Origin: a bacterium
GTDB lineage: Bacteria > JACRDZ01 > JAJRWM01
NCBI GenBank assembly: GCA_024276815.1
Contig: JAJRWM010000245.1
Location: 1-31,876, forward strand
Direction: 5' to 3'
DNA: 31,876 bases
Below the pieces are notes generated by a model that did not search any database, was not told the origin of the DNA, and saw nothing but the letters and a program-made list of their open reading frames with translations. The position numbers were made by a program, and so were the translations under genes. Positions 14,899-18,700 of this stretch are shown one piece after another; the first letter of the stretch is position 1, and each line of letters begins with the position of its first letter.

Positions 14899-17079
14899 TC
14901 AGGCAATGACAATCCGGGAAAAATCGGCCACTCGATTGAATAGATCAGCAACCTCCTGAAGCAGGGCAAAACGATTATCCTTGACTTTGGCATCCTCAAC
15001 CATAACCATTACCTGATCAAAAAATTTGTCAATAGCGGGCTGTAGCGGTTTTAAGACCTCAAAAGCCCCAACATAGTTATTTTCGTCAAGTAGCGGTAAA
15101 AACTTGTCTTTTATTTTAAGGAGTTGCTCTCTCAACACGGATTCGGCTTCGTCAGCGAACAGGTCAGGGTCAAGCTGGGGAATCTTCTCCGGCGCGCTTT
15201 TGAGGATATTGACTACCCGCCGATGAGTCGTCATCATCGAGGAAAAATTCTCATCCTTTCTCAGTTCCACGATTGCTTTGGCCCGGTTAGACAAATCCAT
15301 CAGGTCATCCCGCTCTTCTTGGGCTAAAACCGAGTTAATGACGTCATAAGGAACACCGGTCTGCTCCAGGACAAACCGCAGTCTCTGCTTTAACTGCTCC
15401 AGGGTCTGATTGATAATTTCCTCGTGCTCCTCCACCACTTTGCCCTTCAGGTGGCTGAGGATGCTTTTGATCACAACTTTTAACGGCACTCGATATTCAA
15501 AGTGAAGGACAATCTGGACAACCGCCAGGGCCTGCCTCCTTAAGCCATAAGGATCCTGGGAACTGGTCGGAATCAGACCGACGCCGATACAACCCGTTAA
15601 GTTATCCAGCTTTTCAGCGAGACTGAGTAAAGCGCCGGCGGCGCTTTTGGGCAAATCATCACCGTTAAACCGAGGTAAATAATGCTCATAAATGGCTTCA
15701 CAGACTTCAACCGGTTCGCCTGAGAGCCGCGCGTACTCTTTCCCCATAATACCCTGAAGCTCAGGAAATTCGTAAACCATGCTGGTCAGTAAATCCGCCT
15801 TGCAAAGCCTGGCCGCCCGGGCGGCTTCGGGAACATGTTGACCGGCTCGTCGCCCGCCAGCCCCGTGCGGTAGCGCGGGATCAAGGGGAGCAACAAAATG
15901 AATACTTTCCTTACCGGCGAAGCCCCGTGCGGTAGCGCGGGGTGCTTCACATTTAAGCAGTTCGCCTAAGAACTGAACCGTGCGTTCCAACCGTTCACAT
16001 TTCTCAAATACGGTGCCCAGGCTTTCCTGAAAAACCACCTTCTTCAGCCCCTCGACCAGTTCCTCCAAAGGCTTTTTCTTGTCTTCATCATAGAAAAACC
16101 GGGCGTCGGCCAACCTGGCTTTGAGAACTTTCTCGTTGCCGTGAGTGATTAAATCATCTTCGTCCGAGGGTAGATTGTTGATGGCGGCGAACAGCGGCGC
16201 GAGTTGCCCGTTTTCGGCAGAAAAGGGAAAGTATCTTTGATGTTTCTTCATGGCCGTGATTAACACCGGGGCCGGCACTTCCAGAAACGATTTATCAAAA
16301 TGGCCGACACCGACAACCGGATATTCCACCAGGTTCGCTGTCTCAGCGATCAAATCAGGATCAAGCTCAACGCTGACGCCGTGTTTTTTCGCGGCTCCGG
16401 TTAATTGGCTGGCGATAGTCTGACGACGTTCTTCAGCGTCAATAACAACAAAAGCGTTTTTTATCCGGTCAAAATAATCCGCGGCGTCTTTTACCTCAAT
16501 TTTTTGCGGCGCTAAAAAACGATGGCCATAAGTTAAGTTATTACTCTTCACATCGGCAATCTGAAATTTCACCACCTGATCGCCAAACAACGCCAGGATC
16601 CAGCGAATGGGACGGGCGAAACGAAAGCCGCTCTCCTCCCAGCGCATGGTCTTGGGGAAATTAACCGACTCGATGATCTTGCGGCAGAAGAACTCCTCCA
16701 GCAACTTGTGAGTCTCTTGTCCGCCATATTTCACCTTGGTATAGACATACCCGTCCTCGACATAAATCGAAGCGATATCCACTCCCCATTTTTTGGCGAA
16801 ACCAAGAGCGGCCCTGGTTGGCTCGCCCTTTTCATCAAAAGCTATTCTCCGGGGCGGACCTTTTTCCGGCACTTCTTTTTCTGATTGAATTTCCGCCACG
16901 TCTTTGATGTACAGAACCAAGCGGCGGGGAGTATAAAAGGAAATTATGTTACTGTTAAAATCAATACTGTTACCGGCCAACAGAGACGACGCGTCCTTGC
17001 TCATTTGCCGGCCCGCCGGCTCCAAAAAGGCGGCCGGGATTTCCTCACAGCCAATTTCCAGCAAAAAATCAACGCTCAT
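14899..17079 (-). CDS. glyS: Glycyl-tRNA synthetase beta subunit
   Basis: This is the beta subunit of the tetrameric bacterial glycyl-tRNA synthetase, carrying the HD-like and anticodon-binding regions. At 726 residues it is about 40 longer than usual. The N-terminus is canonical (LLEIGCEEIPAAFLEP), as are FPKTMRW, the RFARPIRWI region and YEFPELQGIMG. The excess lies at residues 378-417, an Ala/Pro/Arg/Gly-rich block (EAPRATARGFAGKES onward) between LGELLKC and EAARAARLCKADLL. It corresponds to a 120 bp unit with internal repeats and keeps the frame. The gene starts 54 bp after the MNT gene rather than directly after glyQ. Confidence 0.95.
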   Translation of the reverse strand: MSVDFLLEIGCEEIPAAFLEPAGRQMSKDASSLLAGNSIDFNSNIISFYTPRRLVLYIKDVAEIQSEKEVPEKGPPRRIAFDEKGEPTRAALGFAKKWGVDIASIYVEDGYVYTKVKYGGQETHKLLEEFFCRKIIESVNFPKTMRWEESGFRFARPIRWILALFGDQVVKFQIADVKSNNLTYGHRFLAPQKIEVKDAADYFDRIKNAFVVIDAEERRQTIASQLTGAAKKHGVSVELDPDLIAETANLVEYPVVGVGHFDKSFLEVPAPVLITAMKKHQRYFPFSAENGQLAPLFAAINNLPSDEDDLITHGNEKVLKARLADARFFYDEDKKKPLEELVEGLKKVVFQESLGTVFEKCERLERTVQFLGELLKCEAPRATARGFAGKESIHFVAPLDPALPHGAGGRRAGQHVPEAARAARLCKADLLTSMVYEFPELQGIMGKEYARLSGEPVEVCEAIYEHYLPRFNGDDLPKSAAGALLSLAEKLDNLTGCIGVGLIPTSSQDPYGLRRQALAVVQIVLHFEYRVPLKVVIKSILSHLKGKVVEEHEEIINQTLEQLKQRLRFVLEQTGVPYDVINSVLAQEERDDLMDLSNRAKAIVELRKDENFSSMMTTHRRVVNILKSAPEKIPQLDPDLFADEAESVLREQLLKIKDKFLPLLDENNYVGAFEVLKPLQPAIDKFFDQVMVMVEDAKVKDNRFALLQEVADLFNRVADFSRIVIA
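15824..15948. repeat. In-frame 120 bp repeat-containing insertion inside glyS
   Basis: GCTTC occurs at 15824-15828 and again at 15944-15948, exactly 120 bp apart (40 codons), like a short target duplication. The 20-mer GCCCCGTGCGGTAGCGCGGG occurs twice inside, at 15860-15879 and 15922-15941, 62 bp apart, so glyS reads the two copies in different frames. Copy 2 with its flanks makes a hairpin: GAAGCCCCG at 15919-15927 with CGGGG-T-GCTTC at 15938-15948. Deleting one 120 bp unit restores a continuous, family-like glyS sequence. Confidence 0.7.
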
Positions 17080-17133: not shown

Positions 17134-17445
17134 TCAAGCCGCAGGTTGATAAATCACTTTGCCCCGCTTCAACACGCTCTCCAAAAAACCGCTCTTGTCA
17201 TATTTCTTACATAAAAGCACCGGCTCGATCCTGGTGTTTATTCCCCGCACTAAACTAAATAATTCCGCGCTTGCCTCCAGATAATCGGCGGGCAACTCAG
17301 CCACTATTACCGCGATGTCAATGTCGCTGTATTCGGTCGCCGTGCCCTCAAGATAAGAACCATAAAGAATAACCATCTCTACCGGCAGACGTTTTCTTAC
17401 TTTTTCAGCGTATCTGCGAGCTATTTCAATGATATTTTTATCCAT
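17134..17445 (-). CDS. MNT-type minimal nucleotidyltransferase (antitoxin-like)
   Basis: The 103-residue protein carries the polymerase-beta superfamily signature GSX10DXD (GSYLEGTATEYSDIDIAVI, residues about 26-44), the Mg-binding and nucleotide-transfer site, with a possible third acidic residue in RIEPVLL. Such minimal nucleotidyltransferases pair with HEPN proteins; in studied pairs (MntA/HepT) MntA adds AMP to the HEPN toxin and neutralises it. The HEPN gene overlaps this one by 25 bp and precedes it, the usual order. ATG 17445 is used. The pair is placed between glyQ and glyS. Confidence 0.85.
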   Translation of the reverse strand: MDKNIIEIARRYAEKVRKRLPVEMVILYGSYLEGTATEYSDIDIAVIVAELPADYLEASAELFSLVRGINTRIEPVLLCKKYDKSGFLESVLKRGKVIYQPAA

Positions 17446-17816
17446 TTATAGAATTCCTCTGTGTCCTGATAAAAACTTTCACATCTTTTCAAGGTAAGAG
17501 CTTTAAGCAAAAGTTCTTTATCTTCCGGGTAACGGGCCTGGATGTTGAGCGGCATAAGTTGGTCGAACAAGCTAAAGTGTTTTCCATCGGCCTTATCATT
17601 GAATTTTGACTGCTCAGCAAGCAACAAAAGGTTGTGAGTAAATGGCGGTTCAGATTCCCTGGTGTGCCAAAAGTATGCCTTTAAACATTTCTCGGCAACT
17701 TGATGACAGAGAAAACCAACGTATAAAAACCTCTTGGCGTCAAGCATGGCTTTGGCGCTGAGTAAATCATAATCAGCCATGTCCAGCCAGTAATCGATTT
17801 TCTCTTTGTAATCCAT
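17421..17816 (-). CDS. HEPN domain protein (toxin-like partner of MNT)
   Basis: The 131-residue all-helical protein is of the HEPN type: an N-terminal KIDYWLDMADYDLLSAKAML helix, a GFLCHQVAEKCLKAYFW core helix and a PPFTHNLLLL segment. Many HEPN toxins are RNases with an R-X4-6-H motif; the nearest match here is R-ESEPPFT-H with seven intervening residues, so RNase activity is uncertain. It overlaps the MNT gene by 25 bp and starts 11 bp after the glyQ stop, so it would be co-transcribed with the synthetase genes. Confidence 0.85.
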   Translation of the reverse strand: MDYKEKIDYWLDMADYDLLSAKAMLDAKRFLYVGFLCHQVAEKCLKAYFWHTRESEPPFTHNLLLLAEQSKFNDKADGKHFSLFDQLMPLNIQARYPEDKELLLKALTLKRCESFYQDTEEFYKWIKISLK

Positions 17817-17827
17817 AAAATAAGCGC

Positions 17828-18700
17828 CTATTTGTTCTTCATTAAAGGGAAACCCATTTCCGCGCGTTTTTTCAGGTAAGCTTTGGAGCAGCGGCGGGTC
17901 AGGTTGCGAACCCGGGCGATATAACCAACCCGTTCGGTAACGCTGATCGCTCCCCTCGCGTCCAGCAGGTTAAAAGCGTGCGAGCATTTCATCACGAAAT
18001 CATAAGCCGGTAAAGCCAGCCCGTGTTCAAGTAGCCGCAGAGCTTCTTTTTCAAAATCGTCAAACAGCCGGAACTGTAATTTGGTATCGGCATAATCAAA
18101 GTTAAAGGCGGAAAATTCCTTCTCCGACTGAAGATGAACGTCGCGGTAAGTAATGCCGTCAGCCCATTCAATATCAAAATTGTTATCTATATTCTGTACG
18201 GCCAGGGTGATTCGTTCCAGGCCATAGGTAATTTCCACGCTGATCGGATCAAGATCAATGCTGCCGGCCTGCTGAAAATAGGTGAACTGGGTCGCTTCCA
18301 TACCGTCGAGCCAGACTTCCCAGCCCAGACCCCAGGCGCCGAGAGTAGGCGACTCCCAGTCATCCTCGACAAAACGGATATCATGTTTTTGGTTGTCAAT
18401 ACCCAGCCCGCTTAAACTACCCAGGTATAAATCGATGATGTCCCGTGGCGCGGGCTTGATGATTACCTGAAATTGGTAATAATGCTGCAAGCGGTTGGGA
18501 TTTTCTCCATAACGCCCGTCAGCCGGACGCCTTGAAGGTTCGACATAGGCGACTTTCCAGGGTTCGGGACCCAAGACCCTCAATAATGTGGCCGGGTTAA
18601 AGGTGCCGGCGCCCACCTCGATGTCATAAGGCTGCTGAATAACACAGCCGTAATCGCCCCAGTATTTCGAGAGTTTTAAAATTACGTCCTGAAAATACAA
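17828..18700 (-). CDS. glyQ: Glycyl-tRNA synthetase alpha subunit
   Basis: This 290-residue catalytic subunit activates glycine and, with GlyS, charges tRNA-Gly. The sequence is highly typical: [20 protein letters not shown] at the N-terminus, [19 protein letters not shown], and motif 3 [10 protein letters not shown]. Length is normal. It follows recO by 6 bp, leaving no room for a T-box or separate promoter. In most genomes glyS follows glyQ directly; here the HEPN/MNT pair lies in between. Confidence 0.97.

Follow-up and report, generated by a model that had tools for sequence, protein, structure and literature searches.

Palindromic elements lying in frame within protein-coding genes are known mainly from Rickettsia, and we know of no established enzyme that mobilises them. 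These Rickettsia palindromic elements (RPEs) are short (about 150 bp) and fall into many families, every one of which has an ORF encoding a conserved peptide; they are tolerated in frame in housekeeping proteins, and PMC10969869 describes no mobilising enzyme. Palindrome-associated transposable elements (PATEs), as described in Haloquadratum walsbyi, lack a transposase gene, terminal inverted repeats and target duplication; their palindromes are direct rather than inverted, deletion of the core leaves short versions of 52 bp with one palindrome, and they were mobile in a genome that holds only disrupted transposases (PMC3119063). In HqIRS46, an archaeal PATE of 390 bp, the near-terminal palindromes are exact direct repeats of 22 bp (PMC3119063). 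In IS608, of the IS200/IS605 type, the cleavage and guide tetranucleotides are TTAC/AAAG at the left end and TCAA/GAAT at the right, and in the left guide A+16 and A+17 form pairs with the target bases T-3 and T-4 (PMC5934647). Free-standing IS605 stem loops on Borrelia plasmids persist without a transposase and are linked to the 3' ends of genes (PMC2775950).

Here we analyse an insertion within glyS in a window of 31,876 nucleotides, the whole stretch of bacterial DNA that was studied. An earlier note on this window, made from its letters alone, had proposed a dispersed palindromic element tolerated in frame, analogous to RPEs and different from them, and had left its kind unnamed. The proposal was right in substance, the element being set apart by its anatomy from RPEs as they are described. 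Its two hairpins look like directly repeated ends of the IS200/IS605 type, and we put at roughly 80% the probability that the block is a PATE, a non-autonomous element of the IS200/IS605 type, inserted in frame in glyS.

Results

An in-frame insertion in GlyS

The MAG has one glyS gene, which we assume from its gene family to be essential in the source bacterium. In an alignment with 109 relatives, the interval from G355 to L430 of GlyS spans 76 residues, the median in the homologues being 42, and an extra stretch of about 36 residues, starting after ...FLGELLKC, is absent from them. The insertion described in the earlier note is therefore real and in frame, but the borders common to its copies reduce it from 120 bp and 40 codons to 108 bp and 36 codons, starting at the end of codon 377 and reaching the first base of codon 413 (Table 1). 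The GAAGC direct repeats that had been taken as its borders do not hold, one lying in the foot region of the right-end hairpin and the other outside the element. The frame of glyS is unbroken across the insert, and joining the flanks without it gives an open frame of 690 aa, ...ELLKCQHVPEAARAARLCKADL..., with a loop of normal length.

An AlphaFold2 model built from 49 sequences (mean pLDDT 90.9) has the GlyRS beta fold, and only residues 379-410, between helices 357-376 and 408-425, fall below a pLDDT of 50. Because this is the only such stretch and lies between two helices, we predict that the insert forms a disordered loop, and the 36 added residues are probably floppy. Both the loop position and the absence of the segment from relatives had been raised in the earlier note and agree with the model and the alignment.

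Table 1. Positions of the element, its parts and its host gene in the window
Feature	Position	Strand	Basis or remark
Element, 108 bp = 36 codons	15843-15950	+, antisense to glyS	sharp ends common to same-genome copies; missing in homologues
Left cleavage/target tetranucleotide TGAC, in flank	15839-15842	+	copy alignment and flank conservation
Left guide tetranucleotide CCAG (consensus in this genome CAAG)	15857-15860	+	5' foot of hairpin 1 and pairing code
Left palindrome (IP_L), with first 20-mer	15861-15880	+	7/8 stem pairs
Right guide tetranucleotide GAAG	15919-15922	+	pairs with terminal TCAC in 4/4 full copies of this genome
Right palindrome (IP_R), second 20-mer	15923-15942	+	8/8 stem pairs
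Right cleavage tetranucleotide TCAC, end of element	15947-15950	+	end common to copies
glyS, glycyl-tRNA synthetase beta subunit, 726 aa	14899-17079	minus	host gene of insertion; TIGR00211 (E 7e-239) and PF02092
glyQ	17828-18700		upstream of glyS

Anatomy of the element

The 20-mer occurs twice, exactly, 62 bp apart and in two reading frames, as had been reported; the shared sequence is 21 bp long (15859-15879 and 15921-15941), close to the 22 bp of HqIRS46, and no such match is expected in shuffled sequence. The two copies are near-terminal hairpins in direct repeat, and a guide tetranucleotide stands at the 5' foot of both. The folding predicted earlier for one of them is found for both, with an extra outer stem enclosing the left hairpin, and the whole stretch folds just slightly better than shuffles. 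At the left end, the layout in this genome is TTAC followed by CGGCTCGCTCCCCGACAAG and the hairpin, and at the right end GAAG, the hairpin and CTTCAC. The ends of the element (CGGCTCG.. and ..CTTCAC) are not inverted copies of each other, so that it is without terminal inverted repeats. Full copies measure 108-114 bp, which is too short for a transposase gene. No target duplication is found in the flanks of 14 copies, and without the element glyS returns to its normal length at the protein level. A classical MITE, which has terminal inverted repeats and duplicates its target, was therefore rejected.

Copies in the same genome

The earlier note had taken a 20-mer confined to glyS as a point against mobility. 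The exact 20-mer indeed has no further occurrence in the MAG (2.39 Mb in 246 contigs, 91% complete), but diverged copies of the element are present elsewhere in it. A BLAST search of the region against the MAG gave a copy with 78% identity at the 3' end of tgt, where it takes the place of the last Tgt residues, and this copy as query gave two more full copies, one upstream of galT and one between ilvC and psd, as we take these genes to be from our own reading of the ORFs. A covariance model built from the four full copies (glyS 108, tgt 113, galT 110 and ilvC 109 bp) added three more, at C110, C152 and C113, which are short (48, 49 and 48 bp) and have a single hairpin; their size is similar to the 52 bp of the short PATE versions in Haloquadratum. 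The tetranucleotide before the copies is TTAC in six of the seven and TGAC in glyS, and conservation drops outside it and past ..CTTCAC. The copies lie in either orientation and in unrelated gene contexts. Given these dispersed copies, and a site that is empty in the homologues at the protein level, the element may be, or may have been, mobile; because the copies are few and diverged, we make no claim of recent movement.

Copies in other genomes

Among 193 genomes, the covariance model gave six matches in G023 (best E 8e-8) and one in G173 (E 3e-4), both outside the phylum of the source bacterium; G023 is related to it at the level 'same domain' and is therefore of another phylum. The order of parts in both genomes is the left tetranucleotide (mostly TGAA), the outer stem, the guide, the hairpin, GTCAAGG, a linker, the second guide and hairpin, and ..CTTCAA. 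Decay has affected part of the right hairpin in the G173 copy, which is the weaker match. The model found no copies in three other genomes of the source phylum; a weak match in a relative from that phylum (G002, L154, E 0.009) lacked the architecture and was set aside. An IUPAC pattern of the right end had no match in viral contigs, and BLASTN with the galT copy had none in plasmids.

The G173 copy is a second in-frame case: its 114 bp (38 codons) follow codon 5 of ubiU (MKKIE|...|LVCPAGN; L168 1492-2604), and the UbiU model matches the protein from residue 43, at profile position 2. Both copies internal to coding sequence thus have lengths divisible by three and an open frame, as survival inside genes requires. 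Lengths are mixed among the other nine full copies, which lie between genes or at the tgt end.

Guide pairing and hairpin stems

The structures of IS608 contain a third pair, between base 4 of the guide and base 4 of the cleavage tetranucleotide. With the guides at the hairpin feet of 11 full copies, the IS608 code is followed at 57 of 66 positions (left 29/33, right 28/33), a count that is supportive but no formal test, because we assigned the guide positions by eye, copies that share a genome are not independent of each other and the right-end pairing in part merely extends the hairpin stem; other registers fit at no more than 27 of the 66. We scored each copy separately for hairpins and guides, because a MAFFT alignment of the 11 full copies misplaced the right ends. 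The right end and guide change together between genomes, from a consensus of TCAC/GAAG here to TCAA/GAAT in G023. At the left, TGAA/CAAT fits the code perfectly in five of the six G023 copies and in G173; in this genome the fit is 3/3 for TTAC/AAAG (ilvC copy) and 2/3 for both TTAC/CAAG (two copies) and the TGAC/CCAG of glyS. The left guide lies at +16 to +19 in the galT and ilvC copies, its place in IS608. Stem positions are paired despite sequence differences (left 64/80, right 72/80), and arms swapped between genomes pair at a mean of 4.8/8 (left) and 4.3/8 (right).

The ends thus have in common with those of IS608 the TTAC flank, the C at +1, the place of the left guide, its position at the 5' foot of the hairpin and the pairing code, and the right end measures 32-33 nt where the IS608 oligonucleotide is RE35 (PMC5934647). 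Unlike IS608, the element has no tnpA or tnpB, some of its guides and targets differ (CAAG, TGAA/CAAT), and an outer stem is added to the left hairpin.

Search for a transposase

Code and layout match IS608, which would relate the palindromes to the ends of IS605-type transposons, but our searches of the MAG, its phylum relatives and G023 gave no transposase, and no autonomous element, with ends matching these. The sole Y1 match in the MAG is a truncated IS200-like frame with a stop after 58 codons (L141 1282-1434, C210), a state of affairs resembling that in Haloquadratum; its surroundings are unlike the element. No TnpB (zinc-ribbon family PF07282) was found in the MAG. The IS200 gene of G023 was rejected as the source, its ends differing from those of the element, as was a Y1 gene of G003, whose ends are without match to it. 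The latter (L160, C3) encodes a transposase of 140 aa and is flanked by two directly repeated palindromes, ACAAGGGGTCATGACCCCTTGTC.

Discussion

The insertion relative to homologues, the dispersed copies, the borders, the hairpins and the guide/cleavage pairing are features of the sequences themselves, and from them we infer mobilisation by TnpA. A Y1 (HUH) transposase TnpA, supplied in trans, would bind both near-terminal hairpins on single-stranded DNA. The foot guides would pair, the left one with the tetranucleotide that flanks the element on its left and the right one with the element's own last tetranucleotide, and the element would be excised in single-stranded form and inserted 3' of TTAC, TGAC or TGAA, leaving neither target duplication nor terminal inverted repeats. 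One copy would have entered after TGAC, antisense to glyS. Since its 108 bp hold no stop in the glyS frame, GlyRS beta would gain 36 residues in a loop between two helices; the insert is presumably translated, and the loop tolerated by the enzyme.

The element belongs to a new family of a known kind, and what is unusual is its in-frame, RPE-like tolerance in housekeeping genes. It differs from HqIRS46 in being about 110 bp long, bacterial and in frame within protein genes. The tgt copy recalls the Borrelia stem loops in its place at a gene end; the elements here differ from those stem loops, as PMC2775950 presents them, in being two-ended and in having an in-frame internal insertion.

The most serious alternative, which we nevertheless consider unlikely, is a REP/REPIN-type palindrome pair moved by a RAYT (TnpA_REP), from a sister branch of the same HUH transposases. 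Both systems use single-stranded hairpins with a tetranucleotide at the 5' foot (PMC6006769). Phylum relatives of the source bacterium carry Y1 genes, several of them in long ORFs. RAYTs, too, are often found in long ORFs. However, GTAG or GTGG stands at none of the 22 hairpin feet, which carry CCAG, CAAG, AAAG, CAAT, GAAG, GAAT, GAAC and AGAA. The hairpins are directly oriented and do not form alternating doublets, the copies number seven and not hundreds, and the element is a defined two-ended unit of 108-114 bp with cleavage tetranucleotides.

Covarying stems and linker motifs (GTCAAGG) common to several genomes could also be expected of a conserved structured RNA or regulatory element, spread or inherited and lying by chance within glyS. 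This we regard as a slim prospect: no Rfam family was found, the single weak match having an E of 0.94, the copies lie in either orientation in unrelated contexts, with that of glyS antisense to the gene, and the sharp ends and the flank tetranucleotide suit transposition.

On the reading as a PATE, the anatomy suggests a specific, testable mechanism for in-frame palindromic elements. A copy whose length is a multiple of three lies in a housekeeping gene in each of two unrelated genomes, and these genes are themselves unrelated. The IS200/IS605-like guide code, shifting in step between genomes, can be used for tracking the missing transposase. Only tentatively would we go further and propose a bacterial PATE family in unrelated phyla that has repeatedly survived in frame in housekeeping enzymes (GlyRS beta, UbiU). 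Protein segments would then be added, much as by RPEs, through single-strand peel-and-paste transposition, and joint changes of guide and cleavage tetranucleotides would shift the choice of target.

A GlyRS-specific loop expansion or an assembly artefact is scarcely credible: the loop is also longer in a few relatives (L010, L054 and L116), but homologous copies stand at tgt, upstream of galT and between ilvC and psd, and the glyS frame is intact across the insert. In L054, the glyS of Deltaproteobacteria GWC2_42_11, about 18 extra residues are present independently in the same loop, which therefore tolerates insertions. Between glyQ and glyS, on the minus strand at 17134-17816, lie overlapping ORFs for a nucleotidyltransferase (MNT, PF18765/PF01909) and a HEPN-domain protein, resembling an MNT/HEPN-type toxin-antitoxin pair within the glyQS operon.
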